Shown piece by piece: positions 36,761 through 48,992 of a DNA stretch of 64,000 nt (the stretch's first letter is position 1; the number at the start of each line of letters is the position of its first letter). This DNA comes from Holothuria scabra (lineage: Eukaryota > Echinodermata > Holothuroidea > Aspidochirotida > Holothuriidae), in assembly GCA_037179385.1 (NCBI GenBank), contig CM074187.1, positions 7,378,001 through 7,442,000 on the forward strand. Direction: 5' to 3'. Made by a program: the position numbers and the translations under genes. The notes below the pieces were generated by a model. The model saw nothing but the letters and a program-made list of their open reading frames with translations, searched no databases and had not been told where the DNA came from.

Positions 36761-37318
36761 TTTAAAGTGTACCTTAAGTCAAAAAATTCAAAAATACATT
36801 AAATACCCATGAAAAATGAATTCTAACAATTCAACTCCCATCATAATAGGACATTTCTGAGCTGAGATATAAAATGTTGAAGTTTATTTACTCAGCTTAA
36901 AATGGTATGTTGTGCAATAATTTGTGATGTCATTGTTGTACTACTCATAGTCAGATCTTTGTATTTCTTTGTTCTTCTAAAAGTTACTGCACCTTGTACC
37001 AAGGTGTGATAGAACTTCTACTCTTATGAGATGATGTAATTAATAAAGCCCTATCTGTACAACATGCTATACAAACAAACAGGAAGTGTTCACGGTCATA
37101 AAAACATTTTTAATTATAAAGGGAAACAAGGCAGTTAATGTGAGTTTTTCAATAAGACAGTCACAAATTATTGGGCAATGGACCAATTTGTTGTAAGTGA
37201 GTAAACTTCAACATTTTATATCTCAGTTCAAGAATGTCATATGAAGATGGGAGTTGGACTGTTAAAATTCATTTTTCATGCTCTTTAAGATATTTTTTGA
37301 CTTGAAGTACACTTTAAA
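36761..37318. mobile_element. Long-inverted-repeat (foldback) element, copy 1
   Basis: The outer ~140 bases are inverted repeats: TTTAAAGTGTAC at 36761 against GTACACTTTAAA at 37318, and inward 'catgaaaaatgaattctaac', 'caactcccat', 'gagatataaaatgttgaagt' against their complements on the right. TTAA lies at each outer edge, so a TTAA duplication is possible. This copy is uninterrupted and serves as the empty-site counterpart of the copy at 46702-48992. Confidence 0.75.
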
Positions 37319-38396: not shown

Positions 38397-39265
38397 CGAA
38401 GGCAGGCAAGGAATCTATGAGATGGTGATGTCGTGTGTGTGTGTGTGTGATGCCCTCTTGTGAACATGATATCTCAAGAAGGGTAACTCTGAGAGGTCTC
38501 AAACTTGACATGTAGATTGCCCACATTGAGTAGAAGGTCCCTATCATTTTTGGTGGAGGTCAAAGGTCATTTGGGGTCACCAGGGGTCAAATGGTAAATA
38601 CCTTTGAAATTGCTTGTAAACACAATATCTCCAGAAAGAAAAGTGTGAGTGATCTCATACTTACCATGTAGATTGCTCATATTGAATAGATGAACTCTAT
38701 TGTTTTTGGTGGAGGTCAAAGGTCATTTGGGGTCACCAGAGGTAAAAAGGTCAAAACCTTGTAAACACTGCATCTCAAGAAGGGTAACTGTGAGGGCTCT
38801 TATATATAGCATGTGGATTGTCCATGTTAGGTAGATGATCCCTATTGTTTTTGGTGGAGGGCAAAGGTCATCTGGGGTCACCAGAGGTCAAAACATCAAA
38901 ACTTTGTACACAGTATATCTCAAGAAGGGTAACTGTGAGGGATCTCATACTTAGCATGTGGATTGTCCATATTGAGTAGATGAACCCTATTGTTTTTACT
39001 GGAGGTCAAAGGGTCATTTAGGGTCATCAGAGGTTAAACCTTGCACATACTATATTTCAAAAAGGGTAACTGTTAGGGTTAATATTCATTAGTGCATAGG
39101 GTGAAGAGTTTTGAATGGCATGGGTAATGTAAGATGCATTTGGTAAGCTTTTGGAATCCACTTAATTAGGTAAATGATCAAGTTGGGTAATTTCAAAGTA
39201 TGTACTGAAGCAATCTCACTGTATTAAGAATGTCTAAAGTGCATAAAAGTGCATTTGGTACAGTA

Positions 39266-39340
39266 TTTTATTTCGTAATATCGTCAGACATTACGTAATA
39301 GATATTAATAGGAGAGCCCGCTAGTGTGCGCATGTCAATT
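39266..39340 (+). repeat. DIRS left terminal repeat
   Basis: The inner 55 bases (39286-39340) are the exact inverse complement of 43282-43336 in the right terminal repeat. The outer 50 bases (39266-39315) are the exact inverse complement of 43046-43095 in the internal complementary region. Confidence 0.95.
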
Positions 39341-39347
39341 ACGCTAG

Positions 39348-39824
39348 TTACTTGCTTACCACTGGAAGCAAGATCTTTTGCGTGTCAATAATCCCCGTTT
39401 TGGGGCATCCTTCAATGTTCGTTACACCCATTTATGTAAACCTTCAAATCCAGTCACCAAGTTCCTCTTTGGAGATGACCTGAGTAAACAGGTTAAGGAA
39501 CTTAAAGATGAGCAGAAGGCCACAGCAGGGTTTATGAAATCACGTGGCAATTTCTCGAGACAGAGACTACAATCACACCCTTATAGAGGCTACAGGCCAA
39601 GTTCAAGGGGAACGTACACTAAACATGCTTACCGTGATGCTGGCTGGGTGTCCAGGTCAAGTGCAGGGACAAGCAGCAACAGCTCATTCACCACTAACAG
39701 GGCTTTTTTAGGCCAAAGCCAGGGGCGAAGAGCTCACCCGCCCAGAATAGGGGCACCACCCCCCCTGGCCAAGGACAAGTCATATCAGAAGCAGCCTCAG
39801 CCCCAGGCACAGAGGAAACACTAG
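39348..39824 (+). pseudogene. DIRS gag, C-terminal part only
   Basis: Open frame from after a stop at 39345-39347 to TAG at 39822-39824, with no ATG before residue ~63. The segment CKPSNPVTKFLFGDDLSKQV matches the conserved C-terminal part of DIRS gag proteins. It is followed by a basic Arg/Ser/Gln-rich tail (YRGYRPSSRG and similar), probably nucleic-acid binding. The N-terminal few hundred residues usual for the family are absent: only ~37 bases separate the left terminal repeat from this segment, so an internal deletion removed the 5' part. The frame overlaps the RT frame by 127 bases, with a slippery heptamer at 39704-39710. Confidence 0.75.
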
Positions 39825-41809
39825 ACTCTGAAAAGGTGAGCAATTGGCACACTGTGCCACTTGATTTGAACTTAGGCTTAGGCCTAGTTACATCTGAAAT
39901 GCACTTAGAATCACAACCAGCAGTTGGAGGTCGACTGAAGTTATTTTACAAAAACTGGTGCAAGATTACATCAGATCCCTTCATTTTAAATGCAGTTAAA
40001 GGCTACAAAATTGAGGTGAGGCATTCAGACCCACCAAAGAACACAGGACCCTTTCGATGCTTTAAACGAGGGCCTAAAGAGGAAATGCAGATTACTGAAG
40101 AAATACAGGAACTGCATAAAAAGCAAGTGATTGAACCCTGCTTGAGAGAAAAAGGGGATTTCCTATCAAATATTTTTACTAGACCAAAGAAAAATGGTGG
40201 TACTCGTCTGATCCTTGACCTATCAGAATTTAACAAATATCTGCCTTACAGACATTTTAAAATGGATAATATCCATTCAGCAACTCAGCTTATTTCACAA
40301 AACTGTTACTTAACCTCAGTCGATCTTAAAGATGCTTACTATTCTGTAGCTATCCATGAAAACTATAGGAAGTACCTAAAGTTTGAATGGCAAAAGCAAT
40401 TCTGGCAGTTTAAAGCCTTACCTAATGGGCTCAGCACTGCACCCAGACTGTTTACAAAACTTCTAAAGCCCCTGCTGTCAAATTTAAGACAGCAAGGTCA
40501 TTTAGTCATTGGCTACCTTGATGATACTCTAATCATCGCAAATACAGAAGCACAGGGCAAAGTGGCCACCAATGCTACAACCCAAAGCCTTACTCAGCTT
40601 GGCTTCATTATCCATCCACAAAAGTCGGTGCTTACACCAACTCAAGAAATTCAATTCCTGGGTTTCATTTTGAACACTAGAAACATGACCATCAAACTCC
40701 CAAAGGAAAAATCAGCTGAAATTCAAAAAGTTTGCAACAGCTTGCTACAGGCTATGAACCCCACTATAAGACAGGTGGCAATGGTTGTAGGGAAACTTGT
40801 TGCTGCTTTCCCAGCAGTTCCACATGGACAATTGTATTATAGGTCCCTTGAGAAGGACAAAACCCAGGCCTTGAAAGCAAACAAGGGACACTTTGATAGA
40901 AAAATGAAACTATCTCTGGGTGCTAAGTGCGAACTGCAGTGGTGGATATCAGAAATTGATTCGGCCTCTAAGCCAATGAGATATCCTAACCCTATTCTAG
41001 AACTGCGCACCGACGCAAGTGGAATTGGTTGGGGTGCCACAGACATGAAAACCCTCACTGGGGGTAGATGGAATGCTTCTGAGTTAAGGGTAGCTGCAGA
41101 CAATAAGATAAACTACCTAGAAATACTTGCAGCAAGTATGGGTATTAAATGTTTTTGTACAGATCTGCATGACGCACATGTGCTTCTACGTGTAGATAAC
41201 AAAACAGCAGTATCATATATAAACAATATGGGTGGAATCAAATCAGAAGATTGTAATAGGGCAGCTAAGGAAATTTGGGAGTGGTGCAAGGAACATGAAA
41301 TTTGGCTTACAGCAGCTTACCTCCCAGGAACACAAAACACTGAGGCAGACCTAATGTCCAGAAACTTCAATGACAGAACTGAGTGGATGCTAAATAGAGA
41401 AATATTCAGAGACATTATTTCCTGGTTTGGACAACCAGAAATTGACCTCTTTGCATCCAGACTGAATAAGCAATTAGATAACTATGTTTCGTGGCTGCCA
41501 GACCCAGAAGCAAAAGCTATAGATGCTTTTACATTAGACTGGAGTCTTTTGAAATTTTATGCCTTTCCCCCATTTTGCCTCATCCCCAAATGCCTACAAA
41601 AGATCCGACAGGATAAAGCTGAGGGGCTCCTGGTAGTCCCAAACTGGCCTACCCAGCCATGGTTTCCACTCCTTAAGCAGATGTTAGTAGGGACTCCCAT
41701 GTTCATAAAACGTGGGGAGAGGGTGATTACTCAACCGGTCTCACAAGCACCACACCCTTTACACATGCATCTTGATCTTCTTTGTTGCAGGTTATCTGTA
41801 AACATTTAA
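39698..41809 (+). CDS. DIRS reverse transcriptase / RNase H / methyltransferase-like polyprotein
   Basis: 703 open codons with no ATG in the overlap, so expression by -1 frameshift from gag is likely. RT region: TSVDLKDAYYSVAI, LPNGLSTAPRLFTKLL and the catalytic box YLDDTLII, about residues 200-330. RNase H: LRTDASGIGWGA (first Asp), INYLEILAAS (Glu), VLLRVDNKTA (Asp) and NTEADLMSR (last Asp), about residues 435-560, so all four catalytic acids are present. The tail EIDLFASRLN ... AIDAFTLDW ... YAFPPFCLI ... WPTQPWFPLL matches the DIRS methyltransferase-like domain; the phage Dam-type NPPY box appears here as FPPF. It acts in the cytoplasm or nucleus to copy the element RNA. It overlaps the recombinase frame at its 3' end. 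The frame is intact. Confidence 0.93.
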   Translation, partial: QGFFRPKPGAKSSPAQNRGTTPPGQGQVISEAASAPGTEETLDSEKVSNWHTVPLDLNLGLGLVTSEMHLESQPAVGGRLKLFYKNWCKITSDPFILNAVKGYKIEVRHSDPPKNTGPFRCFKRGPKEEMQITEEIQELHKKQVIEPCLREKGDFLSNIFTRPKKNGGTRLILDLSEFNKYLPYRHFKMDNIHSATQLISQNCYLTSVDLKDAYYSVAIHENYRKYLKFEWQKQFWQFKALPNGLSTAPRLFTKLLKPLLSNLRQQGHLVIGYLDDTLIIANTEAQGKVATNATTQSLTQLGFIIHPQKSVLTPTQEIQFLGFILNTRNMTIKLPKEKSAEIQKVCNSLLQAMNPTIRQVAMVVGKLVAAFPAVPHGQLYYRSLEKDKTQALKANKGHFDRKMKLSLGAKCELQWWISEIDSASKPMRYPNPILELRTDASGIGWGATDMKTLTGGRWNASELRVAADNKINYLEILAASMGIKCFCTDLHDAHVLLRVDNKTAVSYINNMGGIKSEDCNRAAKEIWEWCKEHEIWLTAAYLPGTQNTEADLMSRNFNDRTEWMLNREIFRDIISWFGQPEIDLFASRLNKQLDNYVSWLPDPEAKAIDAFTLDWSLLKFYAFPPFCLIPKCLQKIRQDKAEGLLVVPNWPTQPWFPLLKQMLVGTPMFIKRGERVITQPVSQAPHPLHMHLDLLCCRLSVNI
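39704..39710 (+). promoter_or_regulatory. Putative -1 frameshift heptamer T TTT TTA
   Basis: In the gag frame the codons read GCT TTT TTA, giving the canonical X XXY YYZ slippery site. The -1 frame has a stop at 39695-39697 and is then open without interruption into RT/RNase H (to 41809). After a 12-base gap, GGGCG at 39723-39727 can pair with the CGCCC that follows ~11 bases later, a possible weak stimulatory stem. Recoding is inferred, not shown. Confidence 0.6.
39836..41790 (+). promoter_or_regulatory. Putative alternative GT-AG intron joining to the recombinase
   Basis: Donor AAAAG|GTGAGC at 39836 and acceptor TCTTCTTTGTTGCAG|G ending at 41790 are both near consensus. Splicing is phase 0. 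The -1 (RT) frame upstream of the donor runs, after removal of 1955 bases, directly into the recombinase frame at 41791. The intron would remove RT/RNase H almost exactly. The recombinase frame itself opens only after a stop at 41773-41775 and has no ATG before its middle. RNA evidence is needed. Confidence 0.5.
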
Positions 41810-42760
41810 AAGAAAAAGGTTTGCAACAGGAAGCCATCAACATTATTTCAGCATCATGGAGGGTATCAACAAAAAAGCAGTATGTTACTTACATTAAGAA
41901 GTGGAAAGCTTTTTGCACGGAAAGAAAGATAAACGAGTTTTGCTCTGATATTAACAATGTGCTTGAATTCTTTAGTAACCTGTACCACAGTCAGGCTTTG
42001 AGCTACAGTGCTATAAACACAGCTCGTAGTGCTTTATCATCTTTTCTGGTTTTAACTGACACTACATTTACCATCGGAAATCACCCTTTAATCTCTAGAT
42101 TTCTAAAAGGAGTTTTCCACTTGAGACCTCCAAAACCCAGATACCAAGCAACATGGGATGTAAACATTGTATTTAATTATCTACGCAAACTGTCACCAGT
42201 TAACGCTCTTACTTTGAAACAGTTAACACTGAAGCTGGTCATGATTTTGGCCCTTATCTCTGCCCAAAGAGTTCAAGCACTAAGGTTCCTCCATTTAGAG
42301 CGCATGAAACTGCAGACTAATCAGGTGACTTTTCAATTTCATGACCTGCTCAAACAAAATAAGCCAGGGAATGTAAGCTCGACACTTGTGATAAGAGGTT
42401 ACCCTCCAGACCGGCGACTTTGCTCCGTCAAATACCTACGCAGCTACATTGAAAGAACTAGCTCAATTAGGGGAGCTGAAAAGTATCTTCTGATAAGCTA
42501 CAAAAAGCCTTTTAAGAGGATAACTACTCAAACTATCTCTCGTTGGTTAAAAGAAGTCATGAAGAACTCTGGCATCAACACAGATGTGTACAAAGCACAC
42601 TCAACGAGGGCTGCGGCTAACTTCAGCGGCAAGCACCAGTGCTGTTCCAGTACAGGACATTATGGCACAGGCTGGTTGGTCTAATGAGAGAACATTTAGA
42701 ACCTACTACAAAAAGCCAGTAAACGCAGCAAGTGACTTTACAGCCGTAATCAAGGATTAG
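41776..42760 (+). pseudogene. DIRS tyrosine recombinase, frameshifted
   Basis: Replaces integrase in DIRS elements: it inserts the circular DNA by site-specific recombination. The N-terminal core-binding part includes WRVSTKKQYVTYIKKWKAFC. The catalytic domain shows SAQRVQAL (first Arg) and the HxxR motif HSTR. Near 42619-42620 one extra base shifts the frame; the reading frame ends early at 42682-42684. The motif containing the catalytic tyrosine (RTFRTYYKK) continues in the +1-shifted frame to a stop at 42758-42760. The damaged copy would lack the nucleophilic Tyr. No in-frame ATG precedes the catalytic domain, consistent with expression by splicing or recoding. Confidence 0.85.
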
Positions 42761-43045
42761 TCTACTGTACAGTATATTGTTATGTATATAGGTTGCAGGA
42801 AAGTTTGTTGTTCACATCAGTTCAGGACAACCCTGCCGTTTGTTGAGAAGTTTTATTTGGTTTCTACAGTATTGGTGGAAAAAAAAAAAAAAAAATAACA
42901 AAAGTGTTGCATAGACATTTGTGACAACATAGAAGTGGATGGATTGCCATTGAAGGGATATAATGCAGCAGTTTCCAAACTATGTCAGGTACCACGGCAT
43001 ACCCACTATACTGTTGTTTTTCGAATGCGCCTACTAGCTTCAAAA

Positions 43046-43170
43046 TCTCCTATTAATATCTATTACGTAATGTCTGACGATATTACGAAATAAAATAGAA
43101 AATTAAACGAGAACTTACCTGTTTGAAGTTTAATTGTTATTTTATGAGTAATAGGAGGAAGACATTACGT
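43046..43170 (+). repeat. DIRS internal complementary region (circle-junction template)
   Basis: 43046-43095 is the exact inverse complement of the element's left end (39266-39315), and 43093-43170 of its right end (43326-43403). The two matches overlap by AAA at 43093-43095, so the region reads, on the reverse strand, as right end, TTT, left end. This is the joined circle junction, as expected if it templates completion of the termini. Confidence 0.95.
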
Positions 43171-43281
43171 CCCTCCTCAGCCCTCCCTTTAGTCATTGAA
43201 CTCAGGGAGTGTCTCACCTTCAAACAACAGTGTAAGTTCTCTATGTTAACTTTAAGACGTAGGCACATTCTCAACTTCCAA

Positions 43282-43403
43282 AATTGACATGCGCACACTA
43301 GCGGGCTCTCCTATTAATATCTATTACGTAATGTCTTCCTCCTATTACTCATAAAATAACAATTAAACTTCAAACAGGTAAGTTCTCGTTTAATTTTCTA
43401 TTT
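43282..43403 (+). repeat. DIRS right terminal repeat
   Basis: 43282-43336 is the exact inverse of the inner left terminal repeat (39286-39340). The outer 78 bases (43326-43403) are complementary to 43093-43170. It ends CTATTT before flanking ATGTTGA. Confidence 0.95.
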
Positions 43404-44690: not shown

Positions 44691-45189
44691 GCATCATAAC
44701 TGCGTGGGAGATTTCTCTTGTTTGTGAAGGTCAAAGGTTGGGGTCACAAAAGGGCAAAACCTTGAAGACATGACATTTTATGTGGTTATTGAACTGTGGA
44801 GGGATCTCATACTCAGTTTGTGAATTGCTCATATTTAGCATGTTGATGGTCTTTTTAGGTAGTTGCTCCCTATTGTTTTAAGTGAGTGTGAAAGGTCGTT
44901 TTGGGTCACATGATCTCAAAATTTTTTGACCTTACTAGTATACCTCAGTATTTGTGAGGGATCTCATGTTTGTCATGTGGGCATCCATGTTCATTATTAC
45001 AATATATCATATGGCAAGGAATCACTAAGCCTTTTGGCTTTCTATAGTTTGTAATATTCAATTTTGCATCCCCAGATTTTTACAAACAGAAGTAAAGTTG
45101 TTACATTCTTCACATAATGCCACTATTATCGTCACAACTAGCTCGCAAGCATGCTCCCCGTATACATGAACCTATTTGCTAACTACACA

Positions 45190-45690
45190 CACACACACAC
45201 ACACAGTTTCAGTTTCAGTTTCATTTATTCTCTATTTCACCTCGAAGAGGTATAAGATACTTACAAATAGACAAATAGAATATAACAAATGGAAGTGATA
45301 CAACAAAATGCATCAAAGTACAAAAAAGAACGGTTTAAAGAACAAAGCAAAAGTAGAGAAAAAAGGAAAAATGATAACAAACATAACATAATGATAGTAC
45401 CATCTGATACTGCTTTTAACAAACTAAGACAATTCAGACACCAGTCACCTATAGATTTAAGATTACAATTAACCTGAGAATTTATTCATAATTATCGTAC
45501 AAAACTTAAACAAGTTGGACACGATCTTCGTATTTCTACTCTGAAAAAGTTCCTTCAATTTAACAGTTGTGGGCCGTCTTCTAAAATATGGCTTAAGTAA
45601 TAATTTACGTTCTGTGGTAAAGTAAGGGCACTGCAAAATATAGTGGAATTCACACAGACTGTCAAAATGGATCAATGTTTACCTTTTTTG
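45190..45690 (-). pseudogene. LINE 3' end with (GAAACT)n(GT)n tail, minus strand
   Basis: On the - strand, a 68-codon frame (45675 to 45469) gives CEFHYILQCPYFTTERKLLL then KPYFRRRPTTVKLKEL and a FCTIIMNKF end. This matches the C-terminal 'H.l..CP.y...R..l' segment common in Jockey/L1-like LINE proteins. A ~260-base 3' UTR follows, then three GAAACT units and a (GT)n run (45187-45206), a typical LINE terminus. The copy is 5'-truncated near 45690. Confidence 0.65.
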
Positions 45691-46223
45691 AAAGATGAAG
45701 AGCGCCATCTTTTCCTCAGAAAATCGACATTTTTGTCGTAAGGAACACGGTAGGCAATTTTTCACGGTTTTCCGCTTGGAAGTAATTTCGACATGTGAAT
45801 GAATTGACATTGATTCTTTTTCAGGTCAACTCCTTTCTTTTATATGGTCATGTTTTGTTTTCTATGGAACGATTTAGTAAAGATATCTTCAGATAAAGGA
45901 AACTTTGAATTTGACAACACATGGTTAAAGGCATCTTTCCGCGAGTTAAATTGGTCCAATTCTTTCCAAAAGTAGCATTCGGAACTCTATTCGTATAAAC
46001 CCCACGAAAAAATGTCTGAAAATGTGCCCTAGCGTGGATTTAAGTACCCGGATATGCCGTTAAATTGGGCCAGTTATTGTATCGGTTGTTACATTGTCGA
46101 TCACATCTATTAGTTCAGTAAAAGACGTGGAGGAAGTCAGAACAATAAGTTTGAATACTTCTCATTAGTCGAGCTCTCAGATAGTCTCTGCATTTACAAC
46201 AACAATGGCTGATTTTACAGCCC
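45691..46223. other. No feature recognised
   Basis: No exon or repeat that I can support in this ~530-base stretch. Confidence 0.4.
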
Positions 46224-46528
46224 TTAAAGGCAGTCATTCGTCACCCCAAAATACAGTTTCAGTATACATATATCAATACTCTCAATTGGTACAGCTCTTT
46301 GATTGGCATCACATTCAAACAATGCATCTTAGCTAAATTACACAGCATGGGCACTGAGAGTGTCTAGACTACACATTATGGACTTGTATGGCCACTGGGA
46401 CAAGCCATGAAGCAATAAACTAGGATTGTGTCTGGATAAAGAAGAGTTTCAGATAAATGTGGGAGGGGCTAGAAGTAAGTAGGTTGGGAGAATTGGAACT
46501 GTTTGGGATGATGAAAATACGCCTTTAA
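46224..46528. mobile_element. TTAA-flanked MITE, copy 2
   Basis: 305 bp bounded by TTAA (46224-46227 and 46525-46528). It aligns end to end with the copy at 14564-14880, in the same orientation, with about a dozen bases missing near the right end. Confidence 0.7.
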
Positions 46529-46701
46529 CGATGGATGTACGGGTATACCGTTTCCTAGTTAACTATGTAAGATCGTGAAGACAAGATGACTGTTAATTCT
46601 TTCCACTTCTGTGCTACACGTGAGCCAACAGCTCAACACTTTGTAGAACAACTTTCATTTTGCAACCTTTGTGTGTCTATGAAGACGCCTTCGCAGCACA
46701 T

Positions 46702-48992
46702 CTTCAAGTGCATCTCAAGTCAATTCAAAAATATATATATTACACACAATGAAAAATGAATTCTAACAGTCTAACTCCCATCTTCGTAGGACATTCTTGA
46801 GCCGAGATATAAAATTTTGAAGTTCATTCACTCAGACTTAAATGGTACGTTGTGCAATAATTTGTGATGTCATTGTTATACTACTCAAATTACAATCTTT
46901 GTTTTTCTGAAAGTTATTGAAGCTTGTACCAAGGGTGATAGCTCGCTTACTCTCAGTATGGGATGATGTAATTAATGAAACCCTCTTTGTTCAACATGAT
47001 TTGCAAGGAAACACGGAAGTGTTCAAACTTCAAGGTCATTAAACCTTTTTAATTTTTAAAGGGAAACAAAGCAGGAAACGTGAGTTATACAACAAGAAAA
47101 TCACAAATTTTGCGAAATGGACTCATTTTTGGTTCCTTGTGTAACAAAGGAACCTATGCAGTCACCTTGGCGTATGTATGTGTGTGTGTGTATGTGTGTG
47201 TGTGTGTATGTGACGGATTGGAATGCGAGGTATGTGGTGCGATAACTCAATAACCGAGTAATCAATTTTTTTCAAACTTGGTATGTATGTAGATGTTGTG
47301 GAGTAGATGTGCCCTATCGTTTTTGGTGGAGGTCAAAGGTCACTGGTGATCACCAGAGGCCAAAAACTGAATTTCTGTTAGTAGCTGTAACTCAGTATCC
47401 GTTGTTCAAGCAGTGGCATCATTTTAGGATAAGTTAGATTGGTAGGAGGTGAAAATGTTGGTACATTAACCAAAATAATTGGAAAGGGTCAAAAGGTCAA
47501 AAAGTAATGTTTTATTGATATCTTGCCACTGAAACATTTTAGAGGGGTGGTGTAATGGAGATTTCTGTTCGTCTAAGTGAAATGCACGTGATGACCCCCC
47601 TTGACCTCACTTGACCTCATTTGACCTTTGTGACTTTTTCGTGACTTTTTTGTGACGTCAAGATTTGTCTTGATCAGACGAACCAAAAAGGCTATTACAC
47701 TACCCTCCTACAATGTTCGTTACTTGAGTTACTGACATCTAAATGACAGGCTAGTGTGTACATGTAGGTCATATGTAGGCCTATTGCAATGCCAGGTATG
47801 CGGTGCAATTACTCAATAACCAAGTAACATAGTGGAAATAATGGAAAGTTGTGTTCGTCTAAGTAAAGTGCACGTGAAGACTCTTTGGGTCTTTGTTCAA
47901 TTGGTTTAAAAGTCCAGCTGAAGTTTAATGCCTTTAGACAAATGCAATGTATAAAAGAAAAGAAGAATTATAACCCCCTCTCAGTCTAAAAGCAGTTTAG
48001 TTAACAATCAGGACAGTAATGCAATTATTATTAAAAACAACCTTTTCCTCACATACAGTATTGAATAAAGTTATTCACAGTGCAAGCTAAGATTCCAATT
48101 TCAATAGTAAAATATGAAAGCAGTTTCTCTTCTTTACCTCTGCTTTTACCCTAGGGACTACAATGCTGTTTCTAACACCCTCTTTAGGTTAAAAGGTCAT
48201 GTTGAAAGTCATTTATTAGATTCTACAGAGCTATGTTTGTTTCTTGGTCTTCTAGCCAAATTGTGAAGAAGTAATTGGTGGTAATAAATCACTATCGGGC
48301 TGCCGTTAGTAGCAGAATTGTGGGCTTTTCCTTATTTTTGCTTTTCAGGCAAACACATTGGGTAGTCTAAAGGACAACCATGACATAATTTCTAATCATC
48401 CATCATAAATTTGGGTGGTCAGGAATGACCAGATGACTGTTAAATTTCTTTGGTGCAGAAGAGACTGTGTTTATTTAAAATCAGTTTTGATCTACTTTGA
48501 CTGTATTTGACCTTTGTGACTTCTTTTTAAGGTCTGGATTTGAATTGTTGAGATTGACCAAAAAGGCAATTAACTAATCTCCTATACTACCCCAAACTCA
48601 AGTAAATGACATTTTAGTGAAAGGTGATGAATGTATTTGTCGCATGGAAGTGGGCAGTGTGCAGGGTGATAATTTGAAAAGTTTAGTGTTCCATTTCTCT
48701 CAAACGGCAAGTGCTTGTATGATTTTGAAATTTAATGTGCCCCTGTGTTTTTGGGTGATGGCCAAAAGTCATTGGGATTAAAGGTGCAAATTATGCCTTA
48801 CCTTAGGACTACCTTAATACAATATCATCTTTAATGCAAGGAACCATAGTGCCCTTGGGCTCTTGTTTAAGTGAATAAATCCAACATTTTATATCTCGGC
48901 CCAGTGATGTCATATAAAGATGGGAGTTGGACTGTTAGAATACATTTTTCATGATGTTTAATATAATTTTTTTACTTGAGGTACACTTTCAA
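46702..48992. mobile_element. Long-inverted-repeat element, copy 2 (split)
   Basis: The left part (46702-47130) and right part (48867-48992) align with the uninterrupted copy at 36761-37318. The inverted ends are diverged (ttcaagtgcatctcaagtc on the left, gacttgaggtacactttcaa-like on the right). It is interrupted by a HINE-like element of a second family. Confidence 0.7.
47131..48866 (+). mobile_element. HINE-like element, family 2
   Basis: Begins with the hairpin GGTTCCTT / AAGGAACC (47131-47154) and (GT)n runs near 47175-47208. It then has AGGTCA-type text (ggaggtcaaaggtcactgg near 47330) and a long unique body. The 3' end has CAAGGAACC (48837-48845), inverse to the 5' GGTTCCTTG, followed by a GCCC-TT-GGGC stem-loop (48851-48860) and CTCTTGTT. 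Same architecture as the family 1 elements but different terminal sequence. It is inserted in the long-inverted-repeat element, whose other copy gives the pre-insertion site near 37188-37192. Confidence 0.6.

Follow-up and report, generated by a model that had tools for sequence, protein, structure and literature searches.

A predicted alternative intron across the reverse transcriptase, RNase H and methyltransferase of DIRS1-like retrotransposons in Holothuria scabra

A 64,000-nucleotide stretch of the genome of the sea cucumber Holothuria scabra (assembly GCA_037179385.1, contig CM074187.1, positions 7,378,001 to 7,442,000 of the forward strand; hereafter the window, from whose first letter window coordinates are counted) contains a defective copy of a DIRS1-like retrotransposon, all features of which lie on the + strand. 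As far as sequence can tell, the block of this element encoding reverse transcriptase (RT), RNase H (RH) and methyltransferase (MT) is very probably a spliceosomal intron that may be retained or removed, so that a single slip site would serve both a Gag-Pol and a Gag-tyrosine recombinase (YR) product. We judge the intron to be real, with splicing choosing between the RT/RH/MT block and YR, because its sites recur across eight families of elements in this genome. In the mechanism that we propose, the primary RNA would encode Gag, and some ribosomes would slip by -1 on a T TTT TTA heptamer near the end of gag to enter the Pol frame. On unspliced RNA the slipped ribosomes would continue through RT, RH and MT; on spliced RNA the Pol frame, 44 codons past the slip and 11 nt beyond the gag stop, would be fused in phase to YR, and splicing would set the ratio of Gag-Pol to Gag-YR. 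Both products are likely to be Gag fusions made through this one frameshift site: exon 1 contains no Pol-frame ATG in the loci of families A, B, E, F and H, from which we infer that both arise via the -1 slip.

The predicted intron (39836..41790), proposed from reading frames and from recurrence in families, is 1955 nt long and contains RT, RH and MT. Its GT, at 39836, is preceded by AAAAG in the context ...CTGAAAAG/GTGAGCAATT (the slash marks the predicted splice point, here 39835/39836), and its AG, at 41789-41790, is followed by G in the context ...CTTCTTTGTTGCAG/GTTATCTG (41790/41791). The splice donor thus reads AAG/GTGAGC (39833..39841, first intron base 39836) and the splice acceptor TGATCTTCTTTGTTGCAG/G (41773..41791, last intron base 41790). 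Besides the GT-AG ends, there is a pyrimidine tract and, judged by eye, a branch point in range, possibly the A of TTTAC at 41761, 29 nt upstream of the intron end and without an AG in the interval. The intron length equals 2 modulo 3, and since 39836 starts a codon in the Pol frame (39698..41809, 703 aa) and 41791 starts one in the YR frame (41776..42684, with the predicted second exon from 41791), the exons would be joined in phase 0 and in the -1 (Pol) frame. Both frames come from the list of open reading frames (ORFs) and Pfam. The Pol frame opens 6 nt before the slippery heptamer and reaches the donor without an ATG; gag ends in its stop codon at 39822-39824, 11 nt upstream of the donor, and the Pol stop codon starts 17 nt inside predicted exon 2. 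The first ATG of the YR frame, at 42241, is residue 156, and the Pfam integrase match begins at residue 149. The initial annotation had stated that a donor and an acceptor flank RT/RNase H, that removing the 1955 bases between them joins the leader to the recombinase in phase 0 and in the -1 frame, and that YR lacks a start codon before its catalytic half; sequence and frame arithmetic agree on each of these points. What it had said of the leader holds for the in-frame joining, but only the C-terminal part of gag remains in the window copy.

On its own, the donor-acceptor pair would be unconvincing. By approximate weight matrices, the acceptor ranks best in the element and the donor third, behind donors at 43378 in the right terminus and at 40016 inside RT. 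Equally good or better sites on both strands of the window number 20 donors and 23 acceptors, and it is because sites of this strength recur by chance about once per 5.6-6.4 kb of strand that the pair alone carries little weight. Position, phase and recurrence in other families are what raise it above chance.

The 1.19 Gb genome yields at least 70 matches to the Pol protein. We sampled six copies of the window's own family (family A), the window copy included and at least two fragments (C7:15045761 and C1:5328685) left out; the five others are 96.4-97.5% identical to the window copy. The donor GTGAGC and the acceptor TTTGTTGCAG/G are present in all six, so that the loss of GT or AG in intact copies, which the initial annotation had named as a possible refutation, is not seen among them. 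An ATG-started recombinase, the other outcome that it had named, is likewise absent from the five other copies, where the first Met of YR is residue 156 exactly as in the window, but start codons do lie nearby in a part of the relatives from other organisms (see below).

Recurrence outside family A is the stronger argument. Eight families, A to H, defined by the surroundings of the donor and the acceptor, account for 26 of the 28 loci L002-L029; L010 has too little sequence and L025 fits none. Of these 26 copies, 25 have the donor and all have the acceptor. Between families, Pol proteins share 40-57% identity and four-fold sites agree at 0.23-0.43 (21 family pairs, E excluded), while the values for family E (15-18% identity; 26-37 sites agreeing at 0.19-0.45) have little meaning, the translated frame being shifted. 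Silent sites are saturated among the eight families. With Pol at most 57% identical and four-fold agreement this low, the splice signals cannot be put down to mere recent ancestry. Representatives of all eight families carry a leader donor of at least 10.0 bits, a threshold chosen after the scores were seen. Donors stand in phase 0 in A (AAG/GTGAGC), B (GAG/GTAAGT), C (GAG/GTAAGC), D (CAG/GTGAGT) and E (GGG/GTAAGT); the family E donor has this phase in L015, and in L017, where the longest Pol frame is shifted, it falls in phase 1 of that frame. In all 12 loci read, which represent every family, exon 1 has no Pol-frame stop between a point ahead of the slippery site and the in-phase donor.

The acceptors occupy two mutually exclusive positions. 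Families A to E have a proximal TTGCAG near the opening of YR, and F to H have an upstream acceptor inside the MT region (TTTCAG in F and G, TTTAG in H). In all eight families the chosen acceptor is in phase 0, and it scores, from A to H, 10.9, 9.3, 8.8, 6.5, 11.0, 12.9, 10.7 and 8.1 bits. Such mutual exclusion is predicted neither by coding need nor by chance, and it bears on the idea that the splice signals are by-products of coding, through conserved Cys-Arg and Val-Ser codons, and of chance. A conserved Cys-Arg is indeed found at the end of Pol, where TGC AGG reads TTGCAG/G, AGR is the commoner Arg codon (23/31 in family A), and the chance spacing of equally strong sites given above suits this idea. 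AG is not required at this place, however, because the proximal position reads CCG in F and CCT in G, H and L025, not CAG. In addition, the donor recurs in eight families despite a leader that is poorly conserved as protein, and the 16.2 kb of Pol bodies from nine loci contain no donor of 10 bits or more (five family A copies outside those nine have one at 40016). We therefore find it improbable that coding and chance alone made these signals.

Codon use at the sites points in the same direction as the predicted intron. In families A to D the donor Val is followed by a Ser that is encoded each time by AGY, and AGY makes up only 7/37, 13/45, 16/46 and 13/53 of the Pol serines (19-35%), for a product of 0.0047; in A, B, C, D, F and G, CAG encodes the Gln that precedes the acceptor (product 0.010); the GTR shares of Val in A to D give 0.12 and the AGR share of Arg is uninformative (0.30), all of these products treating families as independent and having been calculated once the sites were known. 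The signals are thus conserved beyond what the protein needs, with two reservations: the in-phase donor of F to H is weaker than its neighbour, and L025 departs from the pattern.

These reservations belong to a series of observations that weigh against the intron or soften the case for it. In F, G and H two donors lie 5 nt apart; the stronger (F, AAG/GTGAGG; G, CAG/GTGAGG; H, AAG/GTAAGG) is out of phase and the downstream, weaker one is in phase, except in L027, one of the two H copies, where the out-of-phase donor is the weaker of the pair. In L025 no leader donor exceeds 7.6 bits and the strongest acceptor (14.5 bits) is out of phase, with TTTTTTA present, and L009 is the single one of the 26 copies without a donor. 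The family D acceptor is weak at 6.5 bits, and in family H a 9.1-bit acceptor in another phase, 227 nt inside the YR frame, outscores the chosen site. Inside RT, a second strong donor-like site, GAG/GTGAGG (40013-40021), is in Pol phase and occurs in five of six family A copies. A search of the genome for the spliced junction of family A returned no matches with up to 3 mismatches allowed. The youth of the copies makes conservation of the sites within family A weak evidence of selection; among the six, 92 of 3150 sites vary, and there are 12 invariant stretches 71 nt or more in length, most of them holding neither splice site, which makes a selection test uninformative. The approximate matrices and the late choice of the 10-bit threshold count on the same side, as do the predicted fold downstream of the slippery site and the start codons of the near relatives, both described below.

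The slippery heptamer itself (39704..39710), which lies in the gag frame and is the predicted -1 frameshift site by frame arithmetic, recurs widely: an X XXY YYZ heptamer is found in the upstream frame in all eight families, as TTTTTTA in A to G and TTTTTTG in H. The 90 nt that follow it in the window fold no better than shuffles (z -0.22, pseudoknots being outside the model). A second -1 frameshift, near the end of Pol, would yield a Gag-Pol-YR protein with no intron at all, and the YR frame is indeed -1 relative to Pol, with CCCTTTA at 41755 in the Pol frame. A slip from Pol to YR at this CCCTTTA was rejected, as it reaches a TGA at 41773 before YR opens. The 34-nt overlap contains no heptamer of the types searched (those ending in G were not among them) in the Pol frame, and we regard a second slip as very improbable.

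A more serious alternative accepts the splicing but has YR reinitiated after Gag ends, on an AUG or a near-cognate codon where exon 2 begins; we see this as possible, if clearly the less favoured outcome. The gag stop is indeed close, the strongest donor lying 6-41 nt downstream of it in the seven families where the stop was located, and reinitiation would tolerate the out-of-phase strongest donor of F to H. In predicted exon 2, whose place inside open YR sequence follows from how the acceptor was picked, the first Met is codon 151 in A, 64 in B, 20 in C, 102 in D, 39 in E, 5 in F, 23 in G and 72 in H. Family F, with its early ATG, thus suits reinitiation, and so does family D, where the Pol-frame ATG of exon 1 is the penultimate codon (exon 1 ends ATGCAG/). 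Elsewhere exon 1 has a Pol-frame ATG in one of the two loci of C and, 27 codons before the donor, in G. Against reinitiation stand families A and B, in which exon 2 is free of ATG for 150 and 63 codons and the Pol-frame exon 1 has none either. Nor is the position of the ATG ever conserved, and we continue to favour a Gag-YR fusion made through the slip site. The initial annotation had expected gag, gag-RT-RH and gag-recombinase from one transcript. In support of this, the sites, frames and slippery site recur in seven further families, but the strongest donor of F to H is out of phase, and a reinitiated YR, though less probable than a Gag-YR fusion, would also fit the sequence.

Relatives in other organisms bear on the acceptor and on the start of YR. 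From the best 120 of 835 YR matches, among which the nearest named relatives come from sea cucumber and sea urchin, 116 were aligned (P0043, P0044, P0049 and P0111 excluded) and were divided along the match list, at a cut that we set, into the 50 nearest and the other 66. The acceptor codon is Gln in all 16 readable cases among the 50 nearest; it is readable in 51 of the other 66, with 17 Gln and 34 not. Given Gln in YR and Cys-Arg in the other frame in Pol, the acceptor of the near relatives would read YTGCAG, and three presumed Pol/YR protein pairs, matched up by contigs of equal length, decode to YTGCAG[AG], two further pairs stopping short of the codon. In six of six relatives with a long N-terminus, a Gln placed by eye and unaligned precedes the core motif by 86-91 residues, which is the expected place of the upstream acceptor. 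One gene model, P0044 of Diadema setosum, joins MT to YR at the same acceptor; P0043 (Holothuria), considered as a second such model, was dropped as its exact junction is uncertain. P0049, a fused MT-YR protein, is taken for a copy with an indel. On the donor side, [EKQRG]V[GS] occurs in 15 of 51 Pol leaders of other organisms (those of at least 12 aa, the anchor being present in 92 of 120 Pol matches), compared with 4.2 on average and at most 13 in 2000 shuffles; shared ancestry is still in this count, and the match in P0135, included among the 15, is nothing but the VGGRL motif. Searches for further relatives in viral contigs, genome contigs and phages gave only one distant DIRS-like contig, L001, and a leader search with residues 1-170 of P0130 gave 10 matches, the query included, and nothing new.

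By hand count, an ATG lies no more than 5 codons from the acceptor in 28 of the 50 near relatives: just before it in 16 and just after it in 12 (the latter at the first or second codon past the acceptor, as reinitiation would have it), with neither in 22. This split means that there is no conserved YR start. The 28 would nonetheless suit a YR translated from unspliced RNA at a start codon of its own, by leaky scanning or by reinitiation near the Pol stop, as would the ATG upstream of the acceptor in the YR frame of families C and E and the position of the Pol stop just inside predicted exon 2. Such a start is denied to all six copies of family A, which have no ATG before residue 156, and to B and D, which have none ahead of residues 72 and 110, respectively; the Cys codons conserved in Pol would produce ATGs at this place by chance; and the donors would be left unexplained. 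Translation of YR from unspliced RNA is, in our view, unlikely.

The window element (39265..43402, 4138 bp) has the architecture of a DIRS1-like retroelement, recognised from its inverted and internal complementary repeats and its domains. The left terminus (39265..39349) carries an inverted terminal repeat, 39286-39349 being 94% complementary to 43273-43336 in the right terminus (43273..43402), which comprises the inverted terminal repeat and an extension; both were delimited by repeat comparison. The left internal complementary region (43046..43097) is the exact complement of 39264-39315 and the right one (43093..43170) that of 43326-43403, and the two overlap at 43093-43097 in a short circular junction. 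ATT stands at either end of the element, and the flanks, TTGGTACAGT and TATGTTG, share no repeat, judged by eye, that could be a target site duplication. The domains follow the expected order, RT, RH, Dam-like MT and YR; RVT_1 (1.8e-24) and Phage_integrase are above the Pfam cut-off, and the matches to RVT_3 (RH) and Dam are weak and below it. The right terminus contains a perfect donor consensus, CAG/GTAAGT (43375-43383), the best donor in the element, through which read-through transcripts could be spliced into host sequence; its complement occurs in antisense at 43113-43121, in the internal complementary region.

The window copy is dead, as the N-terminus of gag is deleted and the YR frame is broken. 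The gag remnant (39348..39824, from the ORF list and the left-end-to-donor lengths) is the C-terminal part and ends in TAG; the left end lies 571 nt from the donor, versus 1339-1693 nt in four other family A copies (1.12 kb of extra sequence in three and 0.77 kb in one), and the left end of the sixth copy, L007, was not found. With its YR frame interrupted beyond the HSTRAA motif, the window copy cannot make an active YR itself. The gag, Pol and YR frames are all open in at least one other family A copy, and gag is present in one as a 470-aa frame, which has no Pfam match and is Gag by position only. Among individual loci, a single open frame runs through gag and Pol across the slippery region in L007, RT, MT and YR share one 922-codon open frame in L015 (family E), and L019 has two family D Pol regions head to tail, about 2.3 kb apart. 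Just left of the window element, 38457-39085 consists of four to five head-to-tail units of about 145-156 bp, with related copies near 44700-47380, and 36808-37280 contains an inverted repeat whose 178-nt arms are 74% complementary and to which copies about 9.9 kb rightward (46730-47109) are related.

Splicing that removes pol and exposes a downstream ORF is familiar from the env mRNA of retroviruses and gypsy. Here the downstream ORF would instead be a recombinase, and exon 1 would retain the slippery site together with the end of gag. Introns have been reported in some DIRS-like elements and would be the nearest precedent; among the titles and abstracts that searches of the open-access literature brought up, none describes such an intron. 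The window element shares with the DIRS1-like retrotransposons described by Piednoel et al. 2011 (PMC3266345) Gag, a Pol with RT, RH and MT, YR, inverted terminal repeats, internal complementary regions, a short circular junction and ATT ends. The main text of that article contains no word starting with intron or splic, whereas the window element has a predicted intron across RT, RH and MT. Alternative splicing of retroelements is itself already known. In the Arabidopsis Ty1/Copia element EVD (PMC8892269), one transcription unit likewise gives two products divided by the splicing of a long intron, and splicing with early polyadenylation yields a short Gag-only RNA; in the window element, unlike EVD, splicing would link the Gag leader with another enzyme encoded downstream and keep the frameshift site.

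A broader proposal is that the DIRS elements of many animals share an ancient alternative intron, a two-way switch between Gag-Pol and Gag-recombinase; on present evidence we hold this to be evenly balanced. A long overlap of the Pol and YR ORFs, seen in half of the 28 annotated DIRS1-like elements of PMC3266345, would then reflect an acceptor shifted upstream into the MT region, and the acceptor shift of the families described here would account for that class. A conserved intron, if true, would answer two points left unexplained in the consulted part of that article, namely how YR is expressed without a start codon and why the ORFs overlap at length. It would also mean that annotating YR as an independent ORF gives wrong N-termini, and it predicts junctions that can be checked in existing animal RNA-seq. 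It would, finally, tie the dose of the recombinase to host splicing.
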